A DNA stretch of 64,000 nucleotides, taken from contig JADGAZ010000017.1 in NCBI GenBank assembly GCA_015231755.1, positions 48,891 to 112,890 of the forward strand, in the 5' to 3' direction. Source of the DNA: Magnetococcales bacterium (GTDB lineage Bacteria > Pseudomonadota > Magnetococcia > Magnetococcales > Magnetaquicoccaceae). Shown one piece after another: positions 5,482 to 39,454 of this stretch. Both the position numbers and the translations under genes were made by a program. The first letter of the stretch is position 1; every line of letters begins with the position of its first letter. A model generated the notes under the pieces. That model was given only the letters and a program-made list of their open reading frames with translations. It did no database searches and was not told where the DNA came from.

Positions 5482-5557
<76 letters not shown>

Positions 5558-9007: not shown

Positions 9008-9093
9008 TCCGCTCGACGCAACGCTAAAGAAGGTGGTCGAAAGGCCTGTGTCGTCAAAAGCGAGATCGGAAACCCGCTTGGAGAATTACCGCA

Positions 9094-9989: not shown

Positions 9990-9993
9990 TCCG

Positions 9994-10545: not shown

Positions 10546-10556
10546 GAGCCGAGACG

Positions 10557-11747: not shown

Positions 11748-11823
11748 TCGGCCATAACCGGACCTGTGGAAGTTTCAAGGTCTGGTCGGGTGTTATCGAC
11801 CTTTGCACGAGGCGTCGCGTTTG

Positions 11824-12336
11824 ATGAACGAGCGGAGTACACTATCCACGGGAGTCACGCCCCGGTTTTCCGAGGAGTCGCTGCGACAGATCGAAGTGAT
11901 CTTCCAGCGCTATCCGGCCGATCGGCGGCAATCAGCGGTCATGCCGATTCTCCATCTGGCCCAGCGGGAGTTCGGCGGTTGGCTCTCCCGGGAAAGCTTG
12001 GATTATGTGGCGGAACTGGTGGGCATGCCCCCGATCCGGGTGTACGAGGTGGCCACGTTCTACACCATGTACAACCTGAAGCCCGTGGGACGTTATCACA
12101 TTCAGGCCTGTACCAACATCTCCTGCTGGCTGTGCGGTTCGGATCAGGTCATGGATGCCCTGAAACGCAAACTCAAGCTGGCGGCAGGTCAGACCAGCGA
12201 AGACAAACGGTTCACCCTGGCCGAGGTGGAGTGCCTGGGGGCGTGTGTCAACGCGCCGATGATGCAGATCAATGACGATTACTATGAAAATTTGACTGCC
12301 GACAAGGTGGTCGAAATCATCGACCGTCTCCCTTGA
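11824..12336 (+). CDS. nuoE: NADH-quinone oxidoreductase subunit E (cluster N1a)
   Basis: 170 residues from the ATG at 11824; an in-frame TTG at 11803 is possible. The thioredoxin-like [2Fe-2S] domain is shown by CTNISC and the later CLGAC, giving the four Cys ligands of cluster N1a. It partners NuoF in the NADH dehydrogenase module. The 76-base gap after nuoD is the largest early in the operon. Confidence 0.95.
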   Translation: MNERSTLSTGVTPRFSEESLRQIEVIFQRYPADRRQSAVMPILHLAQREFGGWLSRESLDYVAELVGMPPIRVYEVATFYTMYNLKPVGRYHIQACTNISCWLCGSDQVMDALKRKLKLAAGQTSEDKRFTLAEVECLGACVNAPMMQINDDYYENLTADKVVEIIDRLP

Positions 12337-12383
12337 CCTGCGGCCATGCAAAACACGGCGGACTCCACAACGGATAACATCCC

Positions 12384-13646
12384 ATGAAGATCGTCTATCA
12401 GAATATTCACCTCGCCAACAGTCACACGATGGCCGTTTACGAAGCCAACGGGGGCTACAAGGCGTTGCTCAAGGCCATCGAACTGGGCAGCGACGAGGTT
12501 ATCGAAGAGGTCAAACGCTCCGGCATCCGGGGTCGGGGTGGCGCGGGATTTCCGGCGGGCCTCAAATGGTCCTTCATCCCCAAGAACGATCCTCGTCCCA
12601 AGTACCTCACCTGCAACGCCGACGAAGGCGAACCGGGCACCTGCAAGGACCGGGACATCATCCGCTACGATCCCCATCGTCTGATCGAAGGGATGATCAT
12701 CTGTGGCTTCGCGGTCGGAATCCAGCAGGGATACATCTACATTCGCGGTGAGTTCTACCGGGAGACGGAACGGCTTCAGGCCGCCATCGACGAAGCCTAT
12801 GCCAAAGGCATTTTGGGTGAGAATGTCTGTGGCAAGGGGGTGCGTTTCCATCTGGCAATCCATCGGGGTGGCGGGGCGTATGTGTGCGGCGAGGAGACGG
12901 GACTGATCGAGTCCATCGAGGGCAAAAAGGGTCAACCCCGCCTCAAGCCTCCGTTTCCAGCCAATATCGGTCTGTATGGCTGTCCTACGGTGATCAACAA
13001 CGTCGAAACCCTGGCCTCCATTCCCACCATCATTGAGCGGGGCGGGACGTGGTACGGCGGGTTGGGTGTGGCCAAGTCCAGTGGCACCAAGATTTTTTCG
13101 GTTTCCGGGCATGTCAACAAGCCCGGAAACTACGAAGTCGAACTGGGCATTCCCCTGAAAACCTTGCTGGAAGACCATGCCGGCGGCGTGCGTGGCGGTT
13201 GGAGCAATCTCAAGGGGGTGATTCCCGGCGGTTCCTCCTCTCCGATTCTGCCTGCGGAAGTGTGCGCCACCATTACCATGGATTACGACTCCCTGGGCAA
13301 GGCGGGCACCATGCTCGGCTCCGGGGCGGTCATTGTGCTCGACAAGTCGGTCTGCATCGTGCGGGCGGTTGCCCGGCTGTCGCGTTTTTACCGGCATGAG
13401 TCCTGTGGCCAATGCACACCGTGCCGCGAAGGGACCGGCTGGCTGGCGCAAATCATGACCCGCATGGAAGCGGGTCAAGGCACCCTCGAAGACATCGACC
13501 TGTTGCAAGACATCTGCGCCAACATCGGGGGCAAGACCATCTGCGCCCTGGGGGACGCGGCGGCAGGACCGGTGATGGGTGCAATCCGGGCGTTCAAGGA
13601 AGAGTTCATCTACCACGTGGAGCACGGCCGCTGCATGGCGGGATGA
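12384..13646 (+). CDS. nuoF: NADH-quinone oxidoreductase subunit F (FMN, NADH, cluster N3)
   Basis: 420 residues. The glycine-rich NADH-binding loop is [14 protein letters not shown]. The FMN site is [13 protein letters not shown]. The N3 [4Fe-4S] ligands lie in [12 protein letters not shown] plus a later Cys in GKTICALGD. It oxidises NADH and feeds electrons into the chain of clusters in NuoE, NuoG, NuoI and NuoB. Confidence 0.97.
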
Positions 13647-13662
13647 GGAGCAAGCTTGCAAA

Positions 13663-16059
13663 ATGCCTACTCTGATCATCGACGGGAAGGAAATTGATGT
13701 CAAGCCTGGGACCTCCATCATGGAGGCCGCCAAGCTCCTGGGCATCTTTATTCCCCATTTTTGCTATCATCCCAAACTTCCCATCGCGGGCAACTGTCGC
13801 ATGTGCCTGGTGGAAGTGGAGAAAATGCCCAAGCCGGTGATCTCTTGCGCCATGCCGGTGAGCGAAGGCATGGTGGTGAAGACCGAATCCGACATGGTGC
13901 GCAAGGCGCGCCAGGGCGTTCTGGAATTTTTGCTGATCAACCATCCGCTGGATTGTCCGGTGTGCGATCAGGGCGGGGAGTGTACCCTCCAGGATCTGGC
14001 CATGAAATATGGTCCGGACCGCTCCCGCTTCCACGATCACAAACGTGAGGTGCCCAATTACGATCTGGGCCCCATCATCGAAACCGAGATGAACCGCTGC
14101 ATCCATTGCACCCGCTGCATCCGTTTTTCCGAGGATGTCTCCGGCGTCGAGCAGATGGGGGCGGTCTATCGGGGCGATCACATGCGGGTCGGACCGTTTG
14201 TGGACGCCATCCTGGATTCGGAATTGACCGGCAATCTGGCCGAAATCTGTCCGGTGGGCGCCTTGAATCTCAAGCCGTTCCATTTTCAGGCCAGAGGCTG
14301 GGAACTCAAGCATGCCGATGGGGTGTGTCCCCACTGTTCCGTGGGCTGTCATACCCGGGTGGATCATCTGGATGGTCGCATTCTGCGGGTCATGTCCCGC
14401 ACCTGGAACGAAGGCAACGAAACTTGGCTGTGCGACAAGGGCCGTTTCGCCAGCGATGGTCTGGGCGTCGAGCGTCTGTTGGCCCCGACGATCCGTGCGG
14501 ACAAGGCAAGCCAGCCGAAGAAGGTCAGTTGGCCCGAGGCGCTGGATCAGGCGGCCGCCATCTTGAAGTCGGTCAAACCCGAGGAGGTGGCGGGGTTGGC
14601 TTCCGACGCCATCCAGGGTGGAGAGGAGTTGTATGCCTTCCAGGAGTTCATGCGTCAGGTGGTGGGTACCCCCCATCTGGATCACCGGTTGCGTCAGCGG
14701 GATTTCAGCGGAGATGAGTTGGCCTTGACCCGGGCCGATCTGTTGATGAATACCCCTCTGTCCGATCTCAACGGCGCGGATGCCATTGTGCTGGTGGGGT
14801 GCGATCCCCGTTTTGAAACGCCGATCTTGAATCTGCGTCTGCGTCGCGCCACTCAGGGTGGAGCCCGTGTGATCGCGATTCATCCCAAGCGTTTGAACAG
14901 CAATCTGCTGAATCTGACCCAGCTTGTCGTGGCGCCGGGGGGAGAGGTGGCGCGTCTCAATCAGGCGCTGCTGGCCCTGGAAGCCAACGATGAGCAGGAT
15001 CCGGTGGCGGTTTTGCTGAAGTCGGCCAAAAAGCCGGTGATGATCCTGGGGGAGCATGCCATTCACCATCCGGAAGCCGAGGCTTTGCGCCGTCTGAGTG
15101 TGGCGCTGCTCGACAAGGTGGGTGCAATCGGTGCCCACTGGAATGGATTCAATCGGGTATCTGGCCGGGGCAACAGCGCGGCGGCCCAGGATCTGGGTGT
15201 GGTGCCCCATCGTGGGCCTGGATACACCCGTCTGGATGGGGTCGGCCTGAATGCCGCGGGCATCCTGGAAGCGGCTGCAGCTGGCCGGGTGAAGGTGCTG
15301 TTCTTGTTGGGTGTGGATCCCATCGCAGAGGCGTTGGATCAGGATCTGGCCAGGCGGGCCATGGAGAAGGCCCGGGTGATCCATCTGGGGGCGTTCGACG
15401 GCACGGCGGCGCAAATGGCCGAGGTGGTGCTGCCCGGATTGGCGCCGGGAGAAAAGCCCATGACCTTGACCAACGGCGAAGGCCGTGTGCAACGCAGTGC
15501 CCGTGCGGGGAATGGTCCTTTGGAGGCCAAAGAGGATTGGCGTATTCTGCGGGGCTTAAGCGATCGTTTTTCCGCTCCCCTGGGTTACAACGATCTGGAA
15601 GCCCTGCGCAAAAAGATGGCAGCCAGCGATCATCGGTATGATCTTTCCAAACTGGGGCCGGGCGAGTCGCCCCGGGCCTGTGATCACAGCCCGGTGACCA
15701 AAGGTTTGCCCGTGACCGTGAACGGCGCAGATGGGGTCGGCGGCATTCGACTGGTGCTGGACTCCTCCTTCTACCGGGATGATCCGGTGGCGTGGCGCTC
15801 CAAGGTCATGGCCAAGCTGGCCCGGGATGGACGGTTGCGGATTCATCCGGACGACGCCGCTGGCATGGCGATTGTTCAGAATGGTTTGGTTCGGGTGCTG
15901 CACGGGGAAAAGCGGGTCGAAATTCGGGCCGAGTTGGACAAGAATGTACCCCATGGGGTGGTTTTTGGCGACTTTGGACCGGGTGAAAGCTCCTTGCGCG
16001 GGTTGTGCGATTACACCAGCGGTTTCCCGAAAGTGAGCCTGGTCGCCTTGCCCGGATGA
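13663..16059 (+). CDS. nuoG: NADH-quinone oxidoreductase subunit G
   Basis: 798 residues from the ATG at 13663. The N-terminal [2Fe-2S] cluster N1b is bound by Cys34, Cys45, Cys48 and Cys62. N5 uses a His plus Cys in HPLDCPVCDQGGEC, and N4 uses CIHCTRC with a later CPVGAL. Beyond these, Cys222-x2-Cys225-x3-Cys229-x27-Cys257 matches the ligand set for the off-pathway cluster N7, which mitochondrial-type subunits lack. The C-terminal part is a molybdopterin-oxidoreductase-like fold without evident cofactor. Start codons further upstream fall inside nuoF and are rejected. Confidence 0.96.
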   Translation: MPTLIIDGKEIDVKPGTSIMEAAKLLGIFIPHFCYHPKLPIAGNCRMCLVEVEKMPKPVISCAMPVSEGMVVKTESDMVRKARQGVLEFLLINHPLDCPVCDQGGECTLQDLAMKYGPDRSRFHDHKREVPNYDLGPIIETEMNRCIHCTRCIRFSEDVSGVEQMGAVYRGDHMRVGPFVDAILDSELTGNLAEICPVGALNLKPFHFQARGWELKHADGVCPHCSVGCHTRVDHLDGRILRVMSRTWNEGNETWLCDKGRFASDGLGVERLLAPTIRADKASQPKKVSWPEALDQAAAILKSVKPEEVAGLASDAIQGGEELYAFQEFMRQVVGTPHLDHRLRQRDFSGDELALTRADLLMNTPLSDLNGADAIVLVGCDPRFETPILNLRLRRATQGGARVIAIHPKRLNSNLLNLTQLVVAPGGEVARLNQALLALEANDEQDPVAVLLKSAKKPVMILGEHAIHHPEAEALRRLSVALLDKVGAIGAHWNGFNRVSGRGNSAAAQDLGVVPHRGPGYTRLDGVGLNAAGILEAAAAGRVKVLFLLGVDPIAEALDQDLARRAMEKARVIHLGAFDGTAAQMAEVVLPGLAPGEKPMTLTNGEGRVQRSARAGNGPLEAKEDWRILRGLSDRFSAPLGYNDLEALRKKMAASDHRYDLSKLGPGESPRACDHSPVTKGLPVTVNGADGVGGIRLVLDSSFYRDDPVAWRSKVMAKLARDGRLRIHPDDAAGMAIVQNGLVRVLHGEKRVEIRAELDKNVPHGVVFGDFGPGESSLRGLCDYTSGFPKVSLVALPG

Positions 16060-16122
16060 TCGGGCCGTGGGGGTCGGACAGGATGCGGTATTGTGGCGTT
16101 TCAAGCGTGGACCGGGGACAAA

Positions 16123-17166
16123 ATGCCTGAATTTCTGAATCCAATCTTGGGAACCATCCATGGCTACGGGGTAGGACTCCTGGGAGCCACCTTGTGGACG
16201 GTGGTTTGGACCGTGATCAAGATCGTGATCCTTCTGGCTCCGGTACTGTTCATGGTCACCTACATCACCCTGGCGGAACGCAAGATCATCGGGTTCATGC
16301 AGGTGCGTTATGGACCCAACCGGGTGGGCTTCTGGGGGATTCTGCAACCCCTGGCGGATGCGGCGAAACTGCTGTTCAAAGAGTTGCTGCTGCCGGAAAA
16401 GGCGGACAAGGTCATCTTTCTGCTGGCCCCGGCCCTGACCCTGGTTCCGGCCTTGATCGCCTGGGCGGTGATTCCCTTTGCGCCGGGTCTGGTGCTGGCG
16501 GATATCAACATCGGCATTCTCTACATCCTGGCCATCTCCTCGTTGGGGGTGTACGGCATCATCATGGCAGGATGGGGCTCCAACAACCGCTTCAGCTTTC
16601 TGGGCGGATTGCGTTCGGCGGCCCAGATGGTCTCTTATGAAGTCTCCATGGGCTTCACGCTCATTCCGGTGGTGCTGCTTTCGGGAAGTCTCAACCTCAC
16701 CGACGTGGTCAATGCCCAAAAGAGTGTCTGGTTCGTGGTGCCGTTGTTGCCCATGTTCGTGATCTATTTCATCTCCGTGGTGGCCGAGACCAACCGTGCC
16801 CCCTTCGATCTGCCCGAGGCCGAAGCCGAACTGGTGGCCGGGTTCATCACCGAATATTCCGCCATGAGTTCCGGACTGTTCTTCATGGGTGAATACGCCA
16901 ACATGATCCTGGTGTCGTTCATGGGATCGATTCTCTTTCTGGGCGGTTGGCTGCCCCCGGCCCAGTTCCTCTCCTTCATTCCGGGGATCATCTGGCTGGG
17001 CATCAAGGCGGGATTGTTGCTGTTCGTCTTTTTGTGGATCCGGGCTACCTTTCCCCGCTACCGTTATGATCAACTCATGCGTCTGGGCTGGAAAGTGTTC
17101 CTCCCCATCTCGCTGTTGTGGATCTTTGTCACCGGACTGGGTGTGCTTCTTTTCGGCAAGGCGTAA
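16123..17166 (+). CDS. nuoH: NADH-quinone oxidoreductase subunit H
   Basis: 347 residues from the ATG at 16123; an earlier in-frame GTG at 16093 would add ten unsupported residues. It is a polytopic membrane subunit at the junction between the hydrophilic arm and the proton pumps. It carries [20 protein letters not shown] and the acidic loop [20 protein letters not shown] that lines the quinone entry channel. Confidence 0.96.
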
Positions 17167-17178
17167 GGAGACGCTAAG

Positions 17179-17673
17179 ATGGGTTTGAATTTCAAGGCGT
17201 TGGCGGATACGTTCGCCTTAAGGGAGTTGGCTGCGGGCATGGCCGTCACCTTGCGGCACATGTTCAAGCCCCACATCACCATTCAATACCCCGAGGAGCG
17301 CACGCCGCTTTCTCCCCGGTTCCGGGGCGAACACGCCCTGCGACGGGACGAGGCGGGCAAGGAGCGCTGTGTGGCCTGCAAACTGTGCGAGGCCGTCTGT
17401 CCGGCCCAGGCGATCTATATCGAGATCGACCCCACCAGTGTGGCCGAACAGCGGTTGACCAAGGTTTACAGCATCGACGAAACCAAGTGCATCTTCTGTG
17501 GTTTTTGTCAGGAGGCCTGTCCGGTGGATGCCATCGTGCTGGGGCCGAATTTCGAGTTTCATGGATACAAGCGCGAGGATCTCTTTTATGACAAGGCCAA
17601 ACTCCTGGCCAACGGCGAGCGTTGGAAAAAGGAAATCGACGCCAACCTGGCCGCAGATGCCAAGTACCGTTAG
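17179..17673 (+). CDS. nuoI: NADH-quinone oxidoreductase subunit I (clusters N6a/N6b)
   Basis: 164 residues. Two ferredoxin-type [4Fe-4S] motifs, [12 protein letters not shown] and [12 protein letters not shown], bind N6a and N6b. An N-terminal amphipathic stretch anchors the subunit to the membrane arm. It starts 12 bases after nuoH with GGAG upstream. Confidence 0.96.
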
Positions 17674-17689
17674 GTGGAGTGCATAGATC

Positions 17690-18286
17690 ATGGCAGCGGA
17701 TCTCGTGTTTTATTTTTTTTCGGCCATCACCGTGGGGGCAGCCCTGGGGGTGATTATCAGTCGGAATCAGGTCCATTCGGTCCTGTTTCTGATTCTGGCC
17801 TTTTTCAACACCGCCGGACTTTTTGTCCTGCTCCAGGCGGAGTTTCTGGCCGCTCTGTTGGTCATCGTCTACATGGGCGCTGTGGCCGTGTTGTTCTTGT
17901 TTGTGGTGATGATGCTCGACGTGGATTTCGAGGAGTTGCGTCGGGGCGCCTTGCAGCATCTACCCATGGGAATCGCTGTGGGTGCGGTGCTCGCAGTTGA
18001 GTTTGCCTTCATTCTCAATGGGGTCCATGTGGACGGACCGGCCCAGGCCGCTGGAGTCCCGGTCACGAATACCGTGGCCATTGGTCAACTGCTGTATACC
18101 CGCTTTCTGTTGCCCTTCGAGATCGCCTCGTTGATTCTGCTGGTGGCCTTGATTGGCGCGGTGGTGCTGACCTTGCGGAAGCGCAAGGGGGTCAAGCGTC
18201 AGGATATCTCCAATCAGGTCGCCCGTACACGGGAAGAGGCTGTCAAACTGGTCCAGGTCGCCTCGGGTGAGGGAGCCAAGCCATGA
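17690..18286 (+). CDS. nuoJ: NADH-quinone oxidoreductase subunit J
   Basis: 198 residues with five predicted membrane helices. The conserved helix 3 segment [20 protein letters not shown] is involved in coupling. It overlaps nuoK by four bases (ATGA). The C-terminus has a charged tail after the last helix. Confidence 0.95.
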
Positions 18287-18585
18287 GTCTGCATCATTTT
18301 CTGATCCTGAGTGCCATTCTGTTCACCATCGGCATCGTCGGGATCTTTCTGAACCGGCGCAACATGATCATCATTTTGATGAGCATCGAGCTGATCCTGT
18401 TGGCGGTGAATATCAACTTTGTGGCCTTCTCCCACTATCTCGGGGATGTGTCGGGTCAGATCTTCACCTTCTTCGTCATGACCGTGGCCGCCGCCGAAGC
18501 CGCCATTGGTCTGGCCATTCTGGTCGCCTTTTTCCGTAACCGATCCACCATTGACGTGGAAGAGATCGACTCCCTGAAGGGCTAG
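18283..18585 (+). CDS. nuoK: NADH-quinone oxidoreductase subunit K
   Basis: 100 residues and three helices, the usual length. The buried glutamates of the proton path are seen in [11 protein letters not shown] and [13 protein letters not shown]. It starts inside the stop of nuoJ. Confidence 0.96.
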
Positions 18586-18624
18586 AAGTTAAGATACCCA
18601 CCTGAAGCGGGATTTAAGACGACT

Positions 18625-20556
18625 ATGAGCAAGAACCTCCTGATTATCCTACTGCCTCTCGTCGGCTCCATGATCGCCGGGCTTTTCGGACGGCGTTACC
18701 TGGGCAATGCGATGAGCCGTCTGGTCACCATCGCCTGCATGGTGGGTGCCCTGGCCTTGTCGATCCAGGCCTTCCTGGCCATTGCGGTGGGGGATGCCCC
18801 CACGGTCCATGAGCAGATCTTCTCCTGGATCGTCTCCGGGAAGTTCAAGGTCTCCTTCGCCATTCTTCTCGACCGGCTGACCGTGATCATGCTGGTGGTG
18901 GTCAATGGGGTCTCCACCCTGGTCCACATCTACTCTGTGGGCTACATGGAAGAGGATCCGGACCACGCCCGCTTTTTTTCGTATCTCTCCTTTTTCACCT
19001 TTTCCATGCTCATGCTGGTGACGGGTGACAATTTCCTCCAACTCTTCTTCGGTTGGGAAGGGGTGGGGCTGGCTTCTTATCTGCTCATCGGCTTCTGGTT
19101 CACCAAGGAATCCGCCTGCAATGCGGCCATCAAGGCCTTTTTGGTCAACCGTGTCGGCGATTTCGGTTTTGCCTTGGGCATCTTCACCATCTATATGGTG
19201 TTCGGCACTCTGGACTATGCCGAGGTGTTCCGCATGGCCGGAAGCGGGCAATTCCAGCCTACCATGGATTTCCCCCTGTGGGGAGCCGTGCCCACCATCA
19301 CCTTGATCTGTCTGCTGCTGTTCATTGGTGCCATGGGCAAATCCGCCCAGTTGGGCCTGCACACCTGGTTGCCGGACGCCATGGAAGGTCCGACCCCGGT
19401 TTCCGCCTTGATCCATGCCGCCACCATGGTCACCGCCGGTGTCTTCATGGTCTGCCGCGCCTCGCCGCTGTTTGAACTCTCCCAGACCGCTCTCAACGTG
19501 GTGACGGTGGTGGGGGCTTCCACCGCCCTGTTCGCCGCCACCGTGGGTCTGGTGCAAAACGACATCAAGCGGGTGATCGCCTATTCCACCTGTTCCCAGT
19601 TGGGTTACATGTTTTTTGCCGCCGGTGTTTCCGCTTATCCCGCCGCCATGTTTCATCTGTTCACCCATGCCTTCTTCAAGGCGCTGCTGTTCCTGGGGGC
19701 TGGCGCGGTGATTCATGCCATGCACCACGAGCAGGATATGCGCCATATGGGGGGACTGTTCAAGAAGATCCCCATCACCTATGCGGTCATGATGATCGGC
19801 ACTTTGGCCTTGACCGGCTTTCCGTATCTGGCGGGTTTTTACTCCAAGGACGCCATTTTGGAATCCGCCTATGCCGCCCATACCACGGTGGGCACACTGG
19901 CCTGGATCATGGGCATGCTCGCCGCCATTCTGACCACCTTTTATTCGTTCCGGCTGGTCTTCATGACCTTCCACGGCGCCCCCCCGAAGGATCATCACGC
20001 CAAGCATGCCTATGACCACGCCCACGAGGCCCCCTGGTCCATGCGCTTTCCGTTGCTGGTGTTGGCCATCGGCTCCTTGATCTGCGGTGTGCTGGGACAG
20101 ACCATGGTCCATGAAGGGTGGTTCAAGGAGGCGATCTTCATCGCCAAAGGACACGATGCCCTGGCCCACGCCCATCATGTGGCCGCCTGGGTCAAATGGT
20201 CTCCTTTCGGCATGTTCATCATCGGTCTGGCCTTGGCGTGGTTGCTGTATGTCAAAACCCCCACCCTGCCTGCCATCATGGCTGGACATTGGCGCAACAT
20301 CTATCAGTTCCTGCTCAATGCCTGGTATTTCGACCGGCTCTACGATCGTCTGTTCGTGCGTCCCGCACGTCAGATCGGACAAGGTCTGTGGCAGACGGGT
20401 GATGTGACCATCATCGATGGCTTCGGTGTCAACGGCGTGGCCGCCACGGTTGGACGCTTGGCACAGGGGCTCAAGCGGCTTCAGACCGGCTATGTCTATC
20501 ATTATGCCTTTGCCATGGTGATCGGGCTGTTGGTCCTGATCACGGTGTATGCTTGA
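18625..20556 (+). CDS. nuoL: NADH-quinone oxidoreductase subunit L
   Basis: 643 residues; the distal antiporter-like proton pump. Landmarks are FFGWEGVGLASYLLIGFW with the key Glu, KSAQLGLHTWLPDAMEGPTP with Lys and His of the channel, and HLFTHAFFKALLFLGAG. The C-terminal extension, roughly residues 480-643, is the long lateral helix region ending in a final membrane anchor. It is preceded by a 39-base gap. Confidence 0.96.
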   Translation: MSKNLLIILLPLVGSMIAGLFGRRYLGNAMSRLVTIACMVGALALSIQAFLAIAVGDAPTVHEQIFSWIVSGKFKVSFAILLDRLTVIMLVVVNGVSTLVHIYSVGYMEEDPDHARFFSYLSFFTFSMLMLVTGDNFLQLFFGWEGVGLASYLLIGFWFTKESACNAAIKAFLVNRVGDFGFALGIFTIYMVFGTLDYAEVFRMAGSGQFQPTMDFPLWGAVPTITLICLLLFIGAMGKSAQLGLHTWLPDAMEGPTPVSALIHAATMVTAGVFMVCRASPLFELSQTALNVVTVVGASTALFAATVGLVQNDIKRVIAYSTCSQLGYMFFAAGVSAYPAAMFHLFTHAFFKALLFLGAGAVIHAMHHEQDMRHMGGLFKKIPITYAVMMIGTLALTGFPYLAGFYSKDAILESAYAAHTTVGTLAWIMGMLAAILTTFYSFRLVFMTFHGAPPKDHHAKHAYDHAHEAPWSMRFPLLVLAIGSLICGVLGQTMVHEGWFKEAIFIAKGHDALAHAHHVAAWVKWSPFGMFIIGLALAWLLYVKTPTLPAIMAGHWRNIYQFLLNAWYFDRLYDRLFVRPARQIGQGLWQTGDVTIIDGFGVNGVAATVGRLAQGLKRLQTGYVYHYAFAMVIGLLVLITVYA

Positions 20557-20575
20557 ACGGCGGGAGAATTTGGCG

Positions 20576-22057
20576 ATGCTGAGTCTTGTAACATTCCTTC
20601 CGCTTGTCGGAGCCCTGGTCATCCTGCTCGCGATCCGTGATGACGGCGCGGCCCGCAAGACCGCTCTCGGGGTCTCGCTGCTCACCTTTGTGATCAGCCT
20701 GGGACTTTTGAAAGGCTTCGATACCAGTTCGGCCAAGTTCCAGTTCCTCGAAGAGGTGAGCTGGCTGCCCGAGTATGGCATTGCCTATCGCATGGGTGTG
20801 GATGGCATCAGCCTGCCCTTTGTGCTGCTCACCACCTTCCTGACCCCCATCTGCCTGTTGGCATCCTGGGAGTCGGTGCAGAAACGGGTGCGGGAGTACC
20901 TCATGGCCTTCCTGGCTCTGGAAAGCTTTGTGGTGGGCGTTTTTTGCGCCCTGGACTTCATCCTGTTCTATGTGCTGTGGGAAGCCATGCTGATCCCGAT
21001 GTTCCTGATCATCGGCGTCTGGGGTGGACCCAACCGGGTTTACGCGGCCCTCAAGTTTTTCCTGTACACCCTGGCCGGTTCGGTGCTGATGCTGGTCGCC
21101 ATCCTCTCCTTGGGGTATGCGGGTCACACCTTCTCCGTTCCCGCTCTCATGGAATTGCCCTTGTCGTTTGGCTTCCAGGTCTGGCTGTTCCTGGGGCTGT
21201 TCGCCTCCTTCGCGGTGAAGGTGCCCATGTGGCCGGTCCACACTTGGTTGCCCGACGCCCATGTGGAAGCTCCCACCGCCGGATCGGTGATCCTGGCCGG
21301 TATCCTCCTGAAAATGGGTGCTTACGGTTTCCTGCGCTTCTCCCTGCCCATTTTGCCGGATGCTTCCCGCTTCTTCATTCCGTTGATCTTCGGTCTGTCC
21401 CTGGTGGCGGTGGTCTATACCGCGCTGGTGGCCCTGATGCAAAAGGATCTGAAGAAATTGGTGGCCTACTCTTCGGTTTCGCACATGGGCTTTGTCACCA
21501 TCGGCATCTTCGCTCTGAATCAACAGGGCCTGGAGGGGAGCATCCTCCAGATGGTCAACCACGGTATCGTCTCCGGCGCCCTCTTTTTGGCCGTTGGGGT
21601 GATCTATGACCGGATGCATACCCGTGAAATCGCCCACTTCGGTGGTGTGGCCCACGTGATGCCGGTGTATGCGGTCATTTTCATGATCTTCACCATGGCG
21701 TCGGCGGGTCTGCCGGGCACCAACAGCTTCGTGGGCGAAATTCTCATCCTGCTGGGAGCGTTCATGGCCAACAAGGCGGTGGCCATGGTGGCGGCTACCG
21801 GTCTGGTCTTCGGCGCGGCCTATATGCTGTGGATGTTCAAACGGGTGGTCTTTGGCCCGGTGGGCAACGACGAGGTGCGTGCCATGAAGGATCTTTCGGC
21901 CCGGGAGGTGGCGCTCTTTCTGCCCTTGCTGGTCCTGGTCTTCTGGATCGGATTTTATCCCGGACCCTTCCTGAACCTGTTCCACGCCTCGGTGGAACAT
22001 CTGCTGACGCAAGCCGCCGTGGTCAAGACCGGTGCGGTGGCGGTGGCTTCATTCTAA
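20576..22057 (+). CDS. nuoM: NADH-quinone oxidoreductase subunit M
   Basis: 493 residues from the ATG at 20576, supported by GGGAG nine bases upstream. An earlier ATG at 20549 overlaps nuoL and lacks a ribosome site. This antiporter-like pump has the motifs FYVLWEAMLIPMFLIIGVWG, KVPMWPVHTWLPDAHVEAPT and MVNHGIVSGALFL. Confidence 0.95.
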   Translation: MLSLVTFLPLVGALVILLAIRDDGAARKTALGVSLLTFVISLGLLKGFDTSSAKFQFLEEVSWLPEYGIAYRMGVDGISLPFVLLTTFLTPICLLASWESVQKRVREYLMAFLALESFVVGVFCALDFILFYVLWEAMLIPMFLIIGVWGGPNRVYAALKFFLYTLAGSVLMLVAILSLGYAGHTFSVPALMELPLSFGFQVWLFLGLFASFAVKVPMWPVHTWLPDAHVEAPTAGSVILAGILLKMGAYGFLRFSLPILPDASRFFIPLIFGLSLVAVVYTALVALMQKDLKKLVAYSSVSHMGFVTIGIFALNQQGLEGSILQMVNHGIVSGALFLAVGVIYDRMHTREIAHFGGVAHVMPVYAVIFMIFTMASAGLPGTNSFVGEILILLGAFMANKAVAMVAATGLVFGAAYMLWMFKRVVFGPVGNDEVRAMKDLSAREVALFLPLLVLVFWIGFYPGPFLNLFHASVEHLLTQAAVVKTGAVAVASF

Positions 22058-27770: not shown

Positions 27771-30254
27771 ATGATCGAGGCCTTTTTCAAGAGTCTGGAA
27801 GGGCCAAAGCGGCCTTTGTTCTGGCTGCATGGCACGGTGGATGGGCCGGTGGAGGCGGTGGATTCGAGCCGTTTTCTGCACGAGGCGCGTCGTTGGGCTT
27901 GGCGATTGCGTCAATCCCCCGAGCCGGTGGTGGGCATTTTGGGGCGCATGACTTTTTCGATGACGGCGGCCTGGTTCGGGGCGATTCTGGCGGGGCGCTT
28001 GCCGGTTTTTTTGTCCCATCCGAGCCGCAAGATCACCCCGGAAGAGTACGCCCGCAAACTGGCCAACTATCGGGAACGGTTCGGCGGATGCGTGATGGTG
28101 GGGGAGGCGGTGGATCGGGGGGTCTGTCCGGAATTGCTCTCGGATGCGGATCTGCGGTTGGATCCGGTGCCTGAAGTCGTGCCTTGGCCGTCATGGACGC
28201 CGGATCGACCGCTTTTTTTGCAGTGCAGTTCCGGGACTACGGGGCTGCAAAAGGCGGTGGCCATCACTTCGGCCATGTTGACCGCCCAGGTGCAAGCCCA
28301 TGCCCAGGCCTTGAAACTCGATCCGCGGCACGACCGGATGGTCAGTTGGCTGCCTTTGTATCACGACATGGGACTGGCCGGGGTGTTTCTGCCCGCGCTG
28401 CTCACCGGCACTCCCTTGCATCTGCTGGATACCTTTGAATGGTCGGCCAATCCGGCCTGGCTGTTGGCGGTGATCGAACGGCAACGGGGTACCTTGTGCT
28501 GGTTGCCCAATTTTGCCTTTTCGTGGCTGGCGCGGGTGGGTGGGTGCTTCGATCTGGGTGCGATGCGCGCCTTCATCAACTGTTCGGAGCCGGTTTCGTC
28601 GGGGGCGTTTGACCGTTTTGTCGCGGCGTTCGGGGTGAAAGGGGAGCAGTTGGCGGTCTGTTACGCTTTGGCGGAAAATGTCTTCGCGGCCACGTTGACC
28701 CCGTTGGGCGCTCCTCCCGGTGTGCTGGTGTTGGACCGGGCCGCTTTGGCGCGGCGACAGGTGCAGGTGCGGGGCCGGGGAGTGGCGGGTGGTGGTGTCG
28801 CCAACGATCAACCGGAAACGCACACGGTGGTATTTGGCTGCGGGGCGTCCTTGCCGGGGGTGTCGATTCGCATCGTCTGCCGTTCGGAAGAGGAGCAGGT
28901 AGGGGAGATTTTGTTGGCCGGTGGGGGGGCGGTGGGGGGCTATCACGGTCAGCCCCCGTTGCGGGAGGATGGCTGGTTTCCCACCGGGGATCTGGGGTTT
29001 GTGCGAGACGGGGAGCTGTATGTCACCGGACGGATCAAGGATCTGATCATCCAGAATGGCAAGAATATCCATCCGGCGGATCTGGAAGAGGCTTTGGGAC
29101 GTTTTCCGGAGGTGCAACCGGGGCGGGTGGTGGCTTTGGGGCGCATGGACGCGGAGGTGGATTCCGAGCGGATTGTGGTGTTGTGCGAGCCGGCGCAGGA
29201 TTTGACCCCGGAGGCGCAACGGCAGTTGCGGATCCGTTTGCAGCAGGCTCTCGATTCCTGGTTCGACATCCGTTCCGAGGTGGATTGCGTGCCGCGCCAT
29301 TGGCTGAAAAAGACCTCCAGCGGCAAGCTGGCCCGTCTGGAGAATCTGCGCCGTTACGAAAGCGCGCTGAATACCGAAATCCAGTTGATCGGAGACAGCC
29401 ATGTGCGGATTTTCTGGAGTGGTCCCACCAGCCATCACAACCGGTATCGGCGCATTCATGCCCATTGGCTGGGATTGATCTGGTCGGAAAACTGGCAGCA
29501 GACCTTGCCATTTTTTTCCAATCTGGTGGGGCGCATGGGGCCGACGGATGTGTTGATTTTGGCCTGTGGCGAGCCGGAGTGCCGCTCGATCTTTCCGCAG
29601 GATCCGGATCCGGAAGCGCGCATTCTGCGGTCGGTGGGGGCGTACCGGGAGTGTCTGACGGTGTTGCGTCGCCTTTGGTCGGGGCGGATGGCCTTCATGA
29701 CCGGGATTCCCACCCATCCGTTGAACATCGACAACGGCGATGCCCAATGGCCCATCCGGGGTACTCCCGAGGTGCGTTATCATTGGCAGGCTTTATTCTA
29801 TCGGCGCATGCGGGCGCTTTGCACCGAACTGGTCATCCATTTCATCGATGTCTGCACTCCGCTGCTGGGTGCCGACGGGCGCATGGATCCATCCCTGTTG
29901 TGTGACAAGGCCCATCTGGATCCGGTCCACGAGGGGGTGATTCTCAAGGCCATACAGGAGCGTTTTGGACATCTGGATCTTTCGGCCAACGATCCGGCCC
30001 CGGAAGATCGCCTTTGGGACGGCAGTTATGATCACTATGTCGCGTTGATGCGTCTGAAAGTGCGGTCCTTTTACCCCATGATCGAAGAGTCGGACTGGTC
30101 GAAGTTGATCTCCGGCGGGGTGTTGGACTCATTGAGTCTGGTGGCGTTGATCGCCATGTTGAATCGGACGTTTCGTTTTCAACTCGATCCGGCCACTTTG
30201 CGGCGCGAGGATTTTGAATCCATAGACAGGATCTGGGAGCGGTTTGGGCCATGA
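27771..30254 (+). CDS. AMP-ligase/SGNH hydrolase/acyl carrier protein fusion
   Basis: 827 residues with three modules. Residues 1 to about 530 are an acyl-adenylating enzyme resembling fatty acyl-AMP ligases: P-loop S153-SGTTG, SWLPLYHDMGLAGVFLP, GWFPTGDLGF, and C-terminal catalytic Lys519 in SSGKLAR. Residues about 538-740 look like an SGNH/GDSL hydrolase, with block I GDSH at 541-544 and block V Asp717-x-x-His720. Residues about 745-827 form an acyl carrier domain with the phosphopantetheine site Ser787 in VLDSLSL. It could activate a fatty or hydroxy acid, hold it on its own ACP, and transfer or release it. The neighbours suggest acyl decoration of a glycan or small molecule; product unknown. 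Confidence 0.85.
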   Translation: MIEAFFKSLEGPKRPLFWLHGTVDGPVEAVDSSRFLHEARRWAWRLRQSPEPVVGILGRMTFSMTAAWFGAILAGRLPVFLSHPSRKITPEEYARKLANYRERFGGCVMVGEAVDRGVCPELLSDADLRLDPVPEVVPWPSWTPDRPLFLQCSSGTTGLQKAVAITSAMLTAQVQAHAQALKLDPRHDRMVSWLPLYHDMGLAGVFLPALLTGTPLHLLDTFEWSANPAWLLAVIERQRGTLCWLPNFAFSWLARVGGCFDLGAMRAFINCSEPVSSGAFDRFVAAFGVKGEQLAVCYALAENVFAATLTPLGAPPGVLVLDRAALARRQVQVRGRGVAGGGVANDQPETHTVVFGCGASLPGVSIRIVCRSEEEQVGEILLAGGGAVGGYHGQPPLREDGWFPTGDLGFVRDGELYVTGRIKDLIIQNGKNIHPADLEEALGRFPEVQPGRVVALGRMDAEVDSERIVVLCEPAQDLTPEAQRQLRIRLQQALDSWFDIRSEVDCVPRHWLKKTSSGKLARLENLRRYESALNTEIQLIGDSHVRIFWSGPTSHHNRYRRIHAHWLGLIWSENWQQTLPFFSNLVGRMGPTDVLILACGEPECRSIFPQDPDPEARILRSVGAYRECLTVLRRLWSGRMAFMTGIPTHPLNIDNGDAQWPIRGTPEVRYHWQALFYRRMRALCTELVIHFIDVCTPLLGADGRMDPSLLCDKAHLDPVHEGVILKAIQERFGHLDLSANDPAPEDRLWDGSYDHYVALMRLKVRSFYPMIEESDWSKLISGGVLDSLSLVALIAMLNRTFRFQLDPATLRREDFESIDRIWERFGP

Positions 30255-30415
30255 GTGAACACGATGGCGATTTTTTATCGGGAGATGGTGGCATTTCATC
30301 GGCCACGATTCTGGGGATGGTTGAAACCATCGTTGCCCCTTTTCATCCCAGAAGAATTGTGGAATTTTGCCATATCACGGCGCCATCCACGACCCACTCC
30401 CCCATCACGAGGTGA
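30251..30415 (+). pseudogene. Truncated nucleotidyltransferase (MNT)-like remnant
   Basis: A 54-codon frame starts in the stop of the AMP-ligase fusion (ATGA). Its residues 20-37, ILGMVETIVAPFHPRRIV, resemble the helix and strand before the GSRARG active site of MNT-type nucleotidyltransferases. The resemblance stops at codon 37, and the rest runs antisense into the end of the carbamoyltransferase gene. It looks like a 5' fragment cut off by recombination. The identification is by eye only. Confidence 0.4.
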
Positions 30416-32073
30416 TCCAGACCCATGGTCTGAAAGGCGGACAAGGCCTCTTGGGGGGTGTTGACCAGGGGGGCGCCGTGGGGGTTGAAGCTGGTGTTGA
30501 GCAGCACGCCGAATCCGGTGCTCTCCTGCATGGCCGCCAGCAGGGCGGCAAAGGGACCGGGGGCGTCGTCGGCGACCATCTGGGGGCGGCAGGTGCCGTT
30601 GGGTCCGATCACGCCCGCCAGCGCGTTTTGGAATTCGGGGCGGACGTGGTAGAGACTGGTCATGCAGCGGTTTGGCGGACCGTGGTGATCCGCCAGCAGT
30701 CGCGCCGCCTCGCTGTCGCGCATGGCAGGGCAGAAGGGTTGATACCAGGCCCGTTTCTTGAGACGCAGGTTGAGGGTATCCCGAATGCCCGGCAGGTCGG
30801 GACGGGCCAGCACGCTGCGTCCTCCCAGGGCGCGGGGGCCATACTCCATGCGGCCCTGGAACCATCCCACGATGCGACCCGCGGTGAGCAGGCGGGCGGC
30901 TTCGGCCACGGGATCGGTCAGATGGCGATGGGGCAGGCCGCTGTTTTTCACCGCACGGGCGATGGTCTCCGGAGTCTGTTCCGGTCCCAGGTGCAGATCC
31001 GTCAGCCAATCCGTTCGGGGAGAGCCTGCCAGACACACCGCCCCCACCGCCAGTCCCCCGTCTCCCATGTGGGGAAAGACATGACACACCTCCACCCCGG
31101 GCAGAGCGCGGATGCGTCCATTCAGCCGCACATTGGCGAATACCCCTCCGGCGAGGGCCAGTCGTTTGGCTCCGGTTGCCTGCAGGGCGTTGGTGACCAG
31201 GGTGACCACCCAGTGTTCCAGGGCCTGTTGGGCCATGGCCGCGAAGGGTTCGCAGGCTTGATGCCAGAACAGCCGACGCAGTTGCCGCAGCTGTCCGCTG
31301 GCGTGGTGACGGGCCTGGAAATCGACTCCCGAGACCTGGATCCAATCCCGCAGGGGGTTGTTTTCCGGTTGGATCAGGGGGGCGTAGTCCGCCAGGGCCA
31401 TGACTTTGCCTTCGTCTTCGAGTTCCCGCAGGTGGAGCAGATTGGTGACCTGCTCGAAAAAGATTCCCGCCGAATTCCGGGCCGCGATGGAGGCGATGGG
31501 GGTGAGTTGCCCCTGATGAAACCGATGCATACTGCCGGAACGGCCATCGCCCACACCGTCCAGGGTGATGACCAGGGTTTCATCCAGCCCCAGTCCGTGG
31601 GCGGCGGCGGCGGCGTGACAGCGGTGGTGGTCGAACAGCGTCAGGGGGCGGTGGGCCAGTCCCAGAGGTTTCAAATCCCTTTTCAAGGCGAGGGTGGAAA
31701 GCCAGCGGGTTGCCGGGTTGCCGGGCCATTCCGTGAGGTGGTATTTGGCCCAGCGGGTCAACGGATCCAGGGGGGAGGGGGCGGCCAGACGGCGGCGCAG
31801 TCGGTAGTAACGCTCTTTGCTGGCGGGCCACAGCCGGGCGATGGTTTTGGCCGGATCCGTGGTGCAGCCCACCACCCGGTGGACCTGATCCGGTTCGATC
31901 TGGCCTTGTCGCAGGCAGGCGAGGATGGATTGGCGGGGAAAGGCGATTTCCAGTTTGCGCCGGGTCAGCCGTTCCTCGTTGACCGCGCAGACCAGACGGC
32001 CATCTTGCATCAAGGCGGCTCCGGAATCGTGTCCATCCCAGATGCCGAGAATGTTTTTTCCGGAGTCGTTCAT
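30343..32073 (-). CDS. Carbamoyltransferase (NodU/CmcH family)
   Basis: 576 residues from the ATG at 32073. The N-terminal Kae1-like domain opens with ILGIWDGHDSGAALM and has the metal-binding LFDHHRCHAAAA; LVITLDGVGDG follows. The C-terminal carbamoyltransferase domain has GRMEYGPRALGGRSVLARP and LNTSFNPHGAPLVNTP. Such enzymes move a carbamoyl group from carbamoyl phosphate onto hydroxyls of sugars or antibiotics via carbamoyl-adenylate. It overlaps the upstream glycosyltransferase gene by four bases. The last few residues lie at a recombination-like junction with a nucleotidyltransferase remnant on the other strand, so the native C-terminus may be altered. Confidence 0.92.
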   Translation of the reverse strand: MNDSGKNILGIWDGHDSGAALMQDGRLVCAVNEERLTRRKLEIAFPRQSILACLRQGQIEPDQVHRVVGCTTDPAKTIARLWPASKERYYRLRRRLAAPSPLDPLTRWAKYHLTEWPGNPATRWLSTLALKRDLKPLGLAHRPLTLFDHHRCHAAAAAHGLGLDETLVITLDGVGDGRSGSMHRFHQGQLTPIASIAARNSAGIFFEQVTNLLHLRELEDEGKVMALADYAPLIQPENNPLRDWIQVSGVDFQARHHASGQLRQLRRLFWHQACEPFAAMAQQALEHWVVTLVTNALQATGAKRLALAGGVFANVRLNGRIRALPGVEVCHVFPHMGDGGLAVGAVCLAGSPRTDWLTDLHLGPEQTPETIARAVKNSGLPHRHLTDPVAEAARLLTAGRIVGWFQGRMEYGPRALGGRSVLARPDLPGIRDTLNLRLKKRAWYQPFCPAMRDSEAARLLADHHGPPNRCMTSLYHVRPEFQNALAGVIGPNGTCRPQMVADDAPGPFAALLAAMQESTGFGVLLNTSFNPHGAPLVNTPQEALSAFQTMGLDHLVMGEWVVDGAVIWQNSTILLG

Positions 32074-32765
32074 GGGCGTCCGCTGAAAAAAAGATCCCGG
32101 ATCAGCACGTAACCATAGCGGATCCAGACCCGGGAGAGCCGGATTTTGGAGGTTCCGAAGATGCGGGCGTGCTCGTGGCTGGGCACTTCGGCGAGGCGAT
32201 AGTTTTTTTGCAAGGTTTTCATCACCATTTCCTGTTCGATGGTGGTGATGTCCTCGTGCAGATCGAGTGACCGCAACACCGGGAGGCGCAGGGCGCGAAA
32301 GCCGTTCTGGCTGTCGCTGAGGCTCACCCCGAAGCGCCAGTTGATGCATGCGGTGATGAAGGCGCTGCCCGCCAGCCGGAAAAACTCCTGGAACGACCCG
32401 TGCAATTCGCTGGATCCTCCGGTGAGCCGGGAGGCCTGCACATGGTCGGCTTGGTTTTCGAGCAGGGGTCGCAGGAGTTTGGGAATGTCCGCCACGTCGT
32501 GGGAGCCGTCGGCGTCGATGAAGACCACCAGTTCGGTTGCGATGAACGGGATGATGGCGCGGATGGCGTAGCCTTTGCCCGCTTTGGGAATGGAGATGAC
32601 CCGCGCTCCGGCCTGGGCGGCCAGGGTGGGGGTGCCGTCGTTGGACAGGGAGTCGGCTACCAGCACGTGAGGCGTGAGTTTGCGGCAGCAGTGGACCATT
32701 TCCGCGATGGTTTCCGCCTCGTCGCGGGTAGGGATGACGATGGTGAAGGGAATTGGCGCATTCAT
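32070..32765 (-). CDS. Family 2 glycosyltransferase (DPM1/DolP-mannosyltransferase-like)
   Basis: 231 residues from the ATG at 32765. A GT-A fold is shown by IVIPTRDEAETIAEMV, the metal-binding VVFIDADGSHD, and SDSQNGFRALR, a pattern typical of polyprenyl-phosphate glycosyltransferases. No C-terminal membrane segments are evident. It overlaps neighbours by four bases on both sides, so it is the middle gene of a tightly coupled three-gene operon. It probably transfers a sugar to a lipid carrier that the partner enzymes modify. Confidence 0.9.
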   Translation of the reverse strand: MNAPIPFTIVIPTRDEAETIAEMVHCCRKLTPHVLVADSLSNDGTPTLAAQAGARVISIPKAGKGYAIRAIIPFIATELVVFIDADGSHDVADIPKLLRPLLENQADHVQASRLTGGSSELHGSFQEFFRLAGSAFITACINWRFGVSLSDSQNGFRALRLPVLRSLDLHEDITTIEQEMVMKTLQKNYRLAEVPSHEHARIFGTSKIRLSRVWIRYGYVLIRDLFFSGRP

Positions 32766-33871
32766 GGCGGGGGGCGTCCACGGAACAAAGGGTGCACAAG
32801 ATTGCCCAGAATGGTGGGCAGGGCGTCGCAGGGGGTCCAGCAGCCTGGACAGCCGTTCTGGGCGATGGTCTCCAGGGTGTGGCGGGCCGGAGCGCTGGCC
32901 AGCAGGGCGTTCAAGTCGCAGGCGTGATCCCGCAGGTGGCCGATGGGTCGATCCCAGATGCTGCATGGAAAACAGGTGCCGTCCGGCGCGACGAACACCG
33001 AAGAGGTCAGGGCGCGACAGGGCATGGGATGGCGTATTCCCTGGATGAAATCCAGGGCGGATGTCAGATAGCGGCTCTCCAGAAAAGCGACGGGATCCGG
33101 CCACAGGCGACGTTTCAGGGTGAGAAATCCGTTGATTTCGTCCCGGAACGCCTGCCGGTTTGTCTCCGACAGCACCGGTCGGTGCAGGTTGCCGTAGTAG
33201 TGGGCCGAGTGGTGGGCGAGGTTGAGATGCCAGATTTTGGGATCCGCCTCCGGAAATCGTTCCCGGACCGCTTGCATGGTGCGGGTCAGGGTACCCACCG
33301 TGTCGTCGGAGAGGGTGAAACCGAAAAACAGTTGCAGCTTAGGATGCGGATGGCGCTGGAAATGGTGATACACCTCCAGGCAGTGACGCCAGTTGCCCGG
33401 TACGCCCCGCAGGGTGTCGTGCTGTTCCGGGGGGCCGTCGAGGCTCAAGGTGATGGTCAGCAGTGGCGGATCCAGGGCCAGGATGTCTTGGATGCGCTGG
33501 ATGGTCAACGCGGGGGAGACGGCGTTGGTGGGCAGATGCAGGTGATAAAGCCGGGGAGAGTGCCGCAACGCCATGGCCGTCAGGGCGGGCAGGTCGGGCC
33601 GCAGGAACGGTTCGCCGCCGGTCAGATCGATCCAGTGAAAACCGGGATATTTTTTGAAGAAGGTTTCGATTTCCGCCAGACCGAGGGGATCCGGGGGCTC
33701 GGACTGGTTCCAGATGTCGCAATGCAGACAGCGGGAGTTGCAGCGTCGGGTGACCACGAAGGTCAGTTTGTAGGGGGTGCGGGGTCGGTCCAGGTTGGAG
33801 CGGGCGATGGCGTGGGCAAGATGCAGGGATCGCAAAAGGCTCAAGTCAGGATCCGGACCCGGTGAGGACAA
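32762..33871 (-). CDS. Radical SAM protein with C-terminal auxiliary cluster region
   Basis: Up to 369 residues. Radical SAM ligands are in TRRCNSRCLHC, and LTGGEPFLRPDL is the SAM-binding GGE motif. The C-terminal part has many cysteines (MPCRA, GTCFPC, CPGCWTPC) typical of a SPASM/twitch auxiliary cluster. The start is uncertain: the longest frame begins with TTG at 33871 without a clear ribosome site, and internal starts cannot be excluded. It is the first gene of the operon with the glycosyltransferase and carbamoyltransferase. The substrate is unknown. Confidence 0.87.
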   Translation of the reverse strand: MSSPGPDPDLSLLRSLHLAHAIARSNLDRPRTPYKLTFVVTRRCNSRCLHCDIWNQSEPPDPLGLAEIETFFKKYPGFHWIDLTGGEPFLRPDLPALTAMALRHSPRLYHLHLPTNAVSPALTIQRIQDILALDPPLLTITLSLDGPPEQHDTLRGVPGNWRHCLEVYHHFQRHPHPKLQLFFGFTLSDDTVGTLTRTMQAVRERFPEADPKIWHLNLAHHSAHYYGNLHRPVLSETNRQAFRDEINGFLTLKRRLWPDPVAFLESRYLTSALDFIQGIRHPMPCRALTSSVFVAPDGTCFPCSIWDRPIGHLRDHACDLNALLASAPARHTLETIAQNGCPGCWTPCDALPTILGNLVHPLFRGRPPP

Positions 33872-37132: not shown

Positions 37133-39454
37133 TCATCCGAGGCGTCTGACCACCTCCAGGCGTGTGATCGCCTGGGCGGCTGACAACTCATGGGTGACGC
37201 GCATCACCACCCCCCGATAGGCGGTGCCGAACCAGCCGTCATGGGCTTCGATCCCTGCTCCGGGTAGAATTTCTGGCCGATGGAGCAGGGTCAGCCCCAC
37301 CTTTTGCAGCCTTTCTCCGGCGTCCAGTTCCGCGGCGCCCCGGGCCTGCAACGCCACCATCGCCGACAGCAGCGGTGATGCCACCTCTCCGGCGTGCCAG
37401 GGGGGACCGTCACCCCGTTCCATCCTCCGCTCCAGTCCCTGGGATTGCACCACCTCTCCACGGGCCGAGAACAGAGCCGGAAACGATTCCGTTCCCGCCA
37501 GCGTCTCGGGCGCCTTGAAAGGATGGCAACCCGTGAGAGCCAGGGTGACCCGCAGTCGGGCCAGGGCCACACCGGCGCGGGTGGCGGTGACCGTGCGTGC
37601 GTCCCGTTCCAGCGTCAGCTCCCCCAGATCGTTGCCCAGCCACTCCACCTGATCGATCCGTGTCACCGGACGGGGCAACACTGCCCGATTGGATCCCGAA
37701 AAATGCAACGTCTCGCTGCGGGTGCGCCAGATGGGTTCGTCGGGCATCCAACGGCCCGTCGAACCCGTCACCTCCCGCAAGGCCACCCCCGGTGAGGCCA
37801 GGGTCACCAGTCGCACGGTCTGGTCCGGCGCGAAACGGTTGCGGGTGTCGATTGCCGGATCGATCTCCAGCCACAGGCCCGGAGACTGAAGTTCCGGGGT
37901 CTGCTCCCGCACGGTGATGCGGTTGATGCCGGTGCCGAAGCTCCCCTCGTGGCGACTTTCCAACAGGTCCGTGGCATCGGTCAGGATGTGGTCCGGGGGA
38001 TCCTGTTCCCACTCCGGCACCGGACGGGGATAGAGGGGTTCCAGCACCACCGTGCCGTCCGGTCGGGAGCGCACCACCCCTCCCACCGCCTGGGCGACGC
38101 GGCGGGCCACCTCCATGGGAGGGCTCTCGCGTACTTGCAGGCGACCCGCCGGCAGACGCCAGGAGGGCAGCTTCCAGATCACGGCGGCGTTCAAGGCCTG
38201 CTCCACCGCGTCTCGCGCCCACACCGGTTGATCCCAACTGCGGGTGAGGGGCAGGGCGTGGGGCGATTCGTGACGGGCCGGCAGACCCAGGGCGGTAATG
38301 ATCCGTTCCGTGTGGCCGGGACCGGTGCGGATCAAGCCCTTGTGGGCCACGAACAGGCGAAAGCGGGTCTCCCCCCAGGTCAGATCCAGGGGTTGATCCG
38401 CTTGCGCCGCGCCGAACACGGCATCGTCGGCCACCACCAGATGGGCCACCCAGGCTACCCGATCCGGAGACCAGGAGAGGGTGCCTCGGACCAGCGCCAG
38501 CGTGATGTCGTTCCAGGCCACGGCGGGCAAGGCTGGGGTCAACCGCGGGATGGAGGAGAGCAGATCCCGGCAGGTGGTGAGGCGGGCGCAGACGGGATTG
38601 TGTGCCAGCAGGTCGAACAGCCGGATCCGTTGCGCCGGAGGGGCGCTGGTGGTGTCGGCCCGGGGCTGGATGTGGCCCTGGTCGAGCCGGTGACGCAGGG
38701 ACCAACAGGCGGCATGTTCAGCGTCGAGGGTATCGTATCGGGGGTGTTGCAGGCGGGATTCCAACTGGATCATCCAGGTTTGGATGCCATGGGTTGCCAC
38801 GTTCAGGCTGTGGGGCTGCGTCAAGGAGCCTTCCAGCACGAAGCCGTGGCATTGGGCATGGGCGTGGGAGAGCAGATGGACAAAGGGATGGCCCTGTTCG
38901 GTTTCGATGCCGATGCCAAAGCCGTGTGTCCCCCGACCATGGGTGAATAGACCCAGATCGTGGCAGGAGAGGCGGTGGGCCATCAGGATCAGGCCATAGG
39001 CGTGGGGGTGCTGGCGGATCACCGTAGGCTGGGCCGGAGGGGGCAGGGTGAAGCTTTTCCAGATTCCACCGTTCCAGGAGGTGATGTTGCTCCAGGAACC
39101 TTGTTCGTGCCAGGTGGTGCCATCGTCCGACCATTGACACTGGAATGCCTGGGGGGCCTGAGTCGAATAGCGGGGCAGCATCCACAATTCCCCCACCGAT
39201 ACCGGATTGCCGGCCCCGAAATCATAGCGGAACCAGGAAGCCACGCCGGGACTGCCATTGTTCCAGTAGTTGCTGGTGTTGTTGTCGAACAGTTTGATGG
39301 CATCCTGATCCGCGTGGCTGGCGGAGGCCGTGCCGCCGGAACACAGATCCACGCTTCCCCCGGCAACGCGCATTTCCACCTCGTACAAGGAGATGAGCAT
39401 GTTGCTGCCCGAGGTGGATTGGGTGATGTAAACACGCCAGTAGCGGTGAGCCAT
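37133..39454 (-). CDS. Phage tail/baseplate-like protein with N-terminal discoidin-like domain
   Basis: 773 residues. Residues 1 to about 140 resemble an F5/8 type C (discoidin) carbohydrate-binding domain: an opening YWRVYITQS, then AIKLFDNNTSNYWNN and SWFRYDFGAGNPVSV. The long remainder resembles phage baseplate-hub or tail-tip proteins in size and position, though I cannot name a family with certainty. It is the last gene of the minus-strand phage-type cluster, six bases after its neighbour, where receptor-binding proteins usually sit. The ATG at 39454 is preceded by GGAG. Confidence 0.65.
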   Translation of the reverse strand: MAHRYWRVYITQSTSGSNMLISLYEVEMRVAGGSVDLCSGGTASASHADQDAIKLFDNNTSNYWNNGSPGVASWFRYDFGAGNPVSVGELWMLPRYSTQAPQAFQCQWSDDGTTWHEQGSWSNITSWNGGIWKSFTLPPPAQPTVIRQHPHAYGLILMAHRLSCHDLGLFTHGRGTHGFGIGIETEQGHPFVHLLSHAHAQCHGFVLEGSLTQPHSLNVATHGIQTWMIQLESRLQHPRYDTLDAEHAACWSLRHRLDQGHIQPRADTTSAPPAQRIRLFDLLAHNPVCARLTTCRDLLSSIPRLTPALPAVAWNDITLALVRGTLSWSPDRVAWVAHLVVADDAVFGAAQADQPLDLTWGETRFRLFVAHKGLIRTGPGHTERIITALGLPARHESPHALPLTRSWDQPVWARDAVEQALNAAVIWKLPSWRLPAGRLQVRESPPMEVARRVAQAVGGVVRSRPDGTVVLEPLYPRPVPEWEQDPPDHILTDATDLLESRHEGSFGTGINRITVREQTPELQSPGLWLEIDPAIDTRNRFAPDQTVRLVTLASPGVALREVTGSTGRWMPDEPIWRTRSETLHFSGSNRAVLPRPVTRIDQVEWLGNDLGELTLERDARTVTATRAGVALARLRVTLALTGCHPFKAPETLAGTESFPALFSARGEVVQSQGLERRMERGDGPPWHAGEVASPLLSAMVALQARGAAELDAGERLQKVGLTLLHRPEILPGAGIEAHDGWFGTAYRGVVMRVTHELSAAQAITRLEVVRRLG

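Follow-up and report, generated by a model that had tools for sequence, protein, structure and literature searches.

A Magnetococcales protein that joins a fatty acyl-AMP ligase, an atypical SGNH domain and an acyl carrier domain on one chain, with a possible role in acyl transfer

What is the function of an adenylating enzyme that carries both its own acyl carrier and an SGNH domain? A gene of this kind lies at 27771..30254 on the forward strand of the window, the 64,000-nucleotide stretch of DNA analysed here, which comes from uncultured Magnetococcales, an order of magnetotactic cocci. The original prediction described three modules, in an unusual order, forming a self-contained machine that activates an acid, loads it onto its own carrier and esterifies or edits a substrate. 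The open reading frame begins with ATG and encodes 827 amino acids within exactly these bounds. The predicted motifs SSGTTG (residues 153-158), Lys519, GDSH (541-544), DPVH (717-720) and Ser787 were all found at the positions given, and the ligase, SGNH-fold and carrier assignments were recovered by profile searches, PDB sequence searches and Foldseek. AlphaFold modelled the whole protein with a pLDDT of 89 and the SGNH-carrier part with a pLDDT of 92.6. A chance origin of the reading frame is ruled out by the match of the ligase part to PF00501 (E=3.8e-33), the full-length homologues and the confident AlphaFold models. Therefore, the arrangement of ligase, SGNH domain and carrier, in this order on one chain, is nearly certain. 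Among the papers searched, none joined a fatty acyl-AMP ligase (FAAL) with an SGNH domain and none described this order.

The ligase occupies residues 1-532 (27771..29366, +), to which the PF00501 match belongs. The top NCBIfam models for this part were fatty acyl-AMP ligases, the best at 4.6e-70, with none of the listed models reaching its curated cut-off. The E. coli fatty acyl-adenylate ligase EcFAAL (3PBK) was the closest solved relative both in sequence (1.1e-49) and in fold (Foldseek, 6.4e-38), although it has no SGNH domain. The ANL fold is present with its P-loop and catalytic lysine. In the P-loop SSGTTG (28227..28244, +), five of the six residues are invariant in 22 aligned rows, and T156 is replaced by Ser in one row; Lys519 (29325..29327, +), in the motif KTSSGK, is invariant in the alignment. 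A variable segment at residues 332-356 (28764..28838, +) is a candidate for the place of the FAAL-specific insertion: FAAL structures align straight across it, whereas CoA-ligase structures split there. Judged from sequence and model, the AMP-ligase of the original prediction can thus be named more sharply as a FAAL, with FAALs rather than CoA ligases as its top NCBIfam and PDB matches. Since the ligase is of the FAAL type, the predicted receiver of the acyl group is a carrier rather than CoA.

Such a carrier is found at the C-terminus of the same protein (residues 746-827; 30006..30251, +). PF00550 was recognised in 9 of 10 homologues (best 6.9e-6), and the PDB matches of this domain were D-alanyl and peptidyl carrier proteins (4.9e-8 to 4.3e-7). 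The domain is helical and contains the motif LDSL with Ser787 (30129..30131, +), the predicted phosphopantetheine site; D786 and S787 are invariant in all 24 homologues. Together, these observations bear out the carrier identity proposed originally. Phosphopantetheinyl transferase (PPTase) genes are present in the host genome.

The middle module (residues about 535-745; 29373..30005, +) is more divergent. PF13472 (Lipase_GDSL_2) matched below threshold in 11 of 12 homologues (best 2.9e-4), scoring 15.5 bits against a gathering score of 32.9, and a profile of the domain gave only marginal matches to PAF acetylhydrolase among PDB sequences. Foldseek on the model confirmed the SGNH fold, with SGNH esterases at E 1e-6 and a probability of 1.00; the nearest folds were sialate O-acetylesterase, isoamyl acetate esterase and PAF acetylhydrolase. 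The active site was examined in an alignment of 24 homologues from at least two phyla. As originally proposed, block I is GDSH (29391..29402, +), and its nucleophile Ser543 is invariant (24/24). The catalytic dyad had been placed in DPVH (29919..29930, +), which we reject, as column 717 contains D, A, K, Q, N, I, H or S and column 720 contains H, Y, L, W, F or R. Instead, D712-x-x-H715 (29904..29915, +) is invariant in all 24 and aligns with the D-x-x-H of PAF acetylhydrolase. G568, by its position a candidate for the block II glycine, is also invariant. Block III reads GEPECR (residues 600-605; 29568..29585, +; invariant in 24/24), so that Pro602 occupies the position of the oxyanion-hole Asn in every member. 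By its sequence, the SGNH domain is atypical in having lost this Asn, and catalysis at Ser543 is therefore not assured. PatB, a well-studied SGNH transferase, retains the block III Asn (PMC12148441). The loss looks like the mark of a wider SGNH group, since two distant relatives read GEVDV (L078) and GEIDCR (L093) in block III. Of the other weak matches, which include L091, L089 reads GQVD. Four more (L087, L088, L090 and L092) were set aside: they are SGNH proteins, but their block III has the usual GxN form and is not of the GE type.

The three-module order was also found in other genomes, namely in 21 further Magnetococcales genomes and two metagenome-assembled genomes (MAGs). Including the host, the protein is encoded in 22 of the 48 Magnetococcales genomes searched, and the 21 other copies are full-length homologues with 43-93% identity. 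In the same genus, 10 of 11 genomes carry the gene, while none of seven genomes of the sister genus in the same family does; further carriers are scattered across seven other Magnetococcales families. When 84,980 species genomes were scanned, one Myxococcales MAG and the unassigned MAG RI_285 were added, all remaining records being from Magnetococcales. Some copies have additional domains: TPRs at the N-terminus (Myxococcales), a type-11 methyltransferase at the C-terminus (RI_285) or an FkbM domain at the C-terminus (L026). No homologue of the SGNH-carrier part was found in phages or plasmids. Distances between homologues in the FAAL part and in the SGNH-carrier part correlate at 0.93. In the FAAL tree, a single supported branch groups the fused FAALs and separates them from four standalone ones of Magnetococcales; the tree carries a long-branch attraction warning for L055 and L031, and their exact placement was not used. 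The distance correlation and the single branch indicate that the two parts have evolved together and that the unit is old and was inherited whole.

We looked for a pathway in the gene neighbourhood, and this approach failed. In the host, complex I, fabI and aroC genes lie on one side of the solitary gene and a convergent group on the other. The adjoining gene, a carbamoyltransferase (30343..32799, −), is its neighbour in seven loci of the same genus and is given as context only; together with a GT2 and a radical SAM/SPASM gene it makes up the run at 30343-33871 (−). Cytochrome bc1 genes are among the neighbours in five other homologue loci. Since no neighbour is kept across families, no pathway can be read from the context. 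Farther along the window, 37133-39454 (−) encodes a large protein in which hardly anything besides an F5/8 type C domain was recognised. No PKS/NRPS gene was recognised beside the gene in the host or in the homologue loci examined, whose neighbours were annotated in part. Ketosynthase (KS) and condensation domains do occur in the host genome on another contig (C13 of G000), which has two NRPS/PKS domain groups (4658-20670 and 103451-119828) and a PPTase gene at 26608. No MBOAT gene was detected in the host genome, which is 97.8% complete. WcbI was not detected there either, in a search that gave no match in any control genome.

More can be learned from relatives in which the modules are separate. 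In another Magnetococcales family, one locus (L031, 7187-11738, +) has genes for an ACP, a FAAL, an MBOAT protein (PF03062, 1.6e-18) and an SGNH protein in a row; the SGNH gene product has a hydrophobic segment at its N-terminus. This operon contains the components of the Dlt pathway, except that DltA is replaced by a FAAL, and by analogy it would be a Dlt-like set that carries a fatty acid. Other MBOAT/SGNH pathways are without such a carrier protein (PMC12148441). In sister families, standalone FAAL genes lie directly beside WcbI-type genes (L032, 220-3459; L033, 6682-10186; L034, 8303-11832; all −), which were identified by PF18588 in L032 and L033 and by sequence similarity in L034. WcbI has been proposed to act in acyl transfer in capsule polysaccharide biosynthesis (PMC4104973). 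It differs from the SGNH module in having another fold and Cys for Ser and in being unfused. For WcbI-like enzymes, the acyl donor that is missing so far might be a carrier together with a FAAL.

Among the standalone SGNH relatives, the two most informative ones are found in glycan loci, which offers a lead to function. Both resemble the SGNH module in having GDSH, G-E in block III and a late His, but neither has a FAAL or an ACP, and they are remote (about 19% identity for L078, E 0.003 for L093). The L078 protein is encoded beside a polysaccharide-type ABC exporter, a GT2 protein and a sulfotransferase. The L093 protein, which also has a TPR partner, is encoded beside flagellin, GT41, TPR-sulfotransferase and GT41-FkbM proteins. 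This region (2554-13910), where the TPR-SGNH protein reads GDSH and GEIDCR, looks like a flagellin glycan-modification locus.

From these data we propose, tentatively and with slightly less than even confidence, that the protein is a soluble self-loading acyl-transfer enzyme. With ATP, the FAAL domain would adenylate a fatty acid, or a related one, to acyl-AMP and then transfer the acyl group to the phosphopantetheine arm at Ser787 of the protein's carrier domain. From there the acyl group would pass to Ser543, working with His715 and Asp712, and finally, still inside the cytoplasm, to a hydroxyl on a sugar, a glycan or a glycoconjugate precursor. For the first two steps, the required domains and residues are seen in the sequence and the model, and the reactions would follow those of their families. 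In the third step, transfer over hydrolysis and a glycan acceptor are suggested by genome context. No membrane or signal segment was found in the FAAL or SGNH parts when hydrophobicity was measured over 19-residue stretches; the peak of 2.05, in the stretch from residue 779, is the site helix of the carrier. The self-contained machine of the original prediction thus stands as far as its three modules on one chain are concerned, while esterification is only plausible beside editing or an inert scaffold.

The closest analogy is the Dlt pathway, in which an adenylating enzyme (DltA), a carrier (DltC) and an SGNH acyltransferase (DltD) work with DltB, and DltC is among the PDB matches of our carrier domain. 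DltD is an SGNH enzyme established as a carrier-fed O-acyltransferase (PMC12148441). However, the Dlt proteins are separate, transfer D-Ala rather than a fatty acid, need the MBOAT protein DltB and act outside the membrane, as does the known carrier-fed SGNH acylation in general (PMC12148441). A Dlt-type MBOAT partner is present in L031 and was not detected in the host genome. By this analogy, the enzyme may work like a one-chain, membrane-free Dlt counterpart without the MBOAT step. In its most specific form, the proposal would be a cytoplasmic soluble O-acyltransferase that uses fatty acids without CoA or MBOAT, attaches them to a glycan or glycoconjugate ahead of its export and has an active site working without the block III Asn; we regard this as possible but rather doubtful in all its details.

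The SGNH relatives in glycan loci, the Dlt-like and WcbI-linked split versions and the members bearing methyltransferases were counted in favour of transfer. On the other side, the nearest matches in fold are hydrolases, the relatives in glycan loci are remote and the other weak matches are ordinary SGNH esterases. Acyl thioesters are substrates of some SGNH hydrolases, among them TesA. The SGNH domain might then be a thioesterase that frees the fatty acid after partner enzymes, for example a methyltransferase, have altered it on the carrier. The esterase folds would fit this, as would the methyltransferase domains fused or adjacent in L025, L026 and L051 (FkbM or type-11 in some members). Nevertheless, no acyl-modifying enzyme is kept next to the gene, loading and release without tailoring would waste ATP, and the standalone SGNH relatives are in glycan loci, so we consider release unlikely.

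We give still less weight to a domain that is no longer catalytic and acts as a scaffold or binding module, presenting the loaded carrier to an acyltransferase encoded elsewhere. The invariant Pro602 in place of the Asn would be explained, and FAAL-ACP didomains, with ligase and carrier on one chain, are already described (PMC11837247). But Ser543, Asp712 and His715 would hardly be invariant in 24 of 24 homologues over at least two phyla if the domain were inert, and the genome search detected no MBOAT that could do the transfer in its stead. It is similarly improbable that the protein is a starter-loading module supplying an NRPS/PKS line encoded at another site in the genome, with the SGNH domain in an editing role. 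FAALs usually act with PKS/NRPS (PMC8460268, PMC11837247), a survey found typical bacterial FAALs always in this context (PMC8460268), and the FAALs treated in a review, whether standalone, didomain or multidomain, belong to PKS/NRPS settings; KS and condensation domains are also present in this genome. However, those clusters are on a different contig from the gene, and no homologue locus examined had a recognised PKS/NRPS gene. The FAAL-ACP didomains of hapalosin (HapA), nocuolin (NocH) and ambruticin (AmbG) likewise combine the ligase with its cognate ACP in a single polypeptide (PMC11837247), but they have no intervening SGNH domain and are located in PKS/NRPS clusters, unlike the Magnetococcales gene.

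If the protein is an acyl-transfer enzyme as proposed, its conservation in one-protein form in many Magnetococcales, and its presence in one or more other phyla, would suggest that FAALs have a role in the modification of surface glycans or lipids. Moreover, the enzyme is compact, and both loading and transfer could be addressed on a single purified protein.
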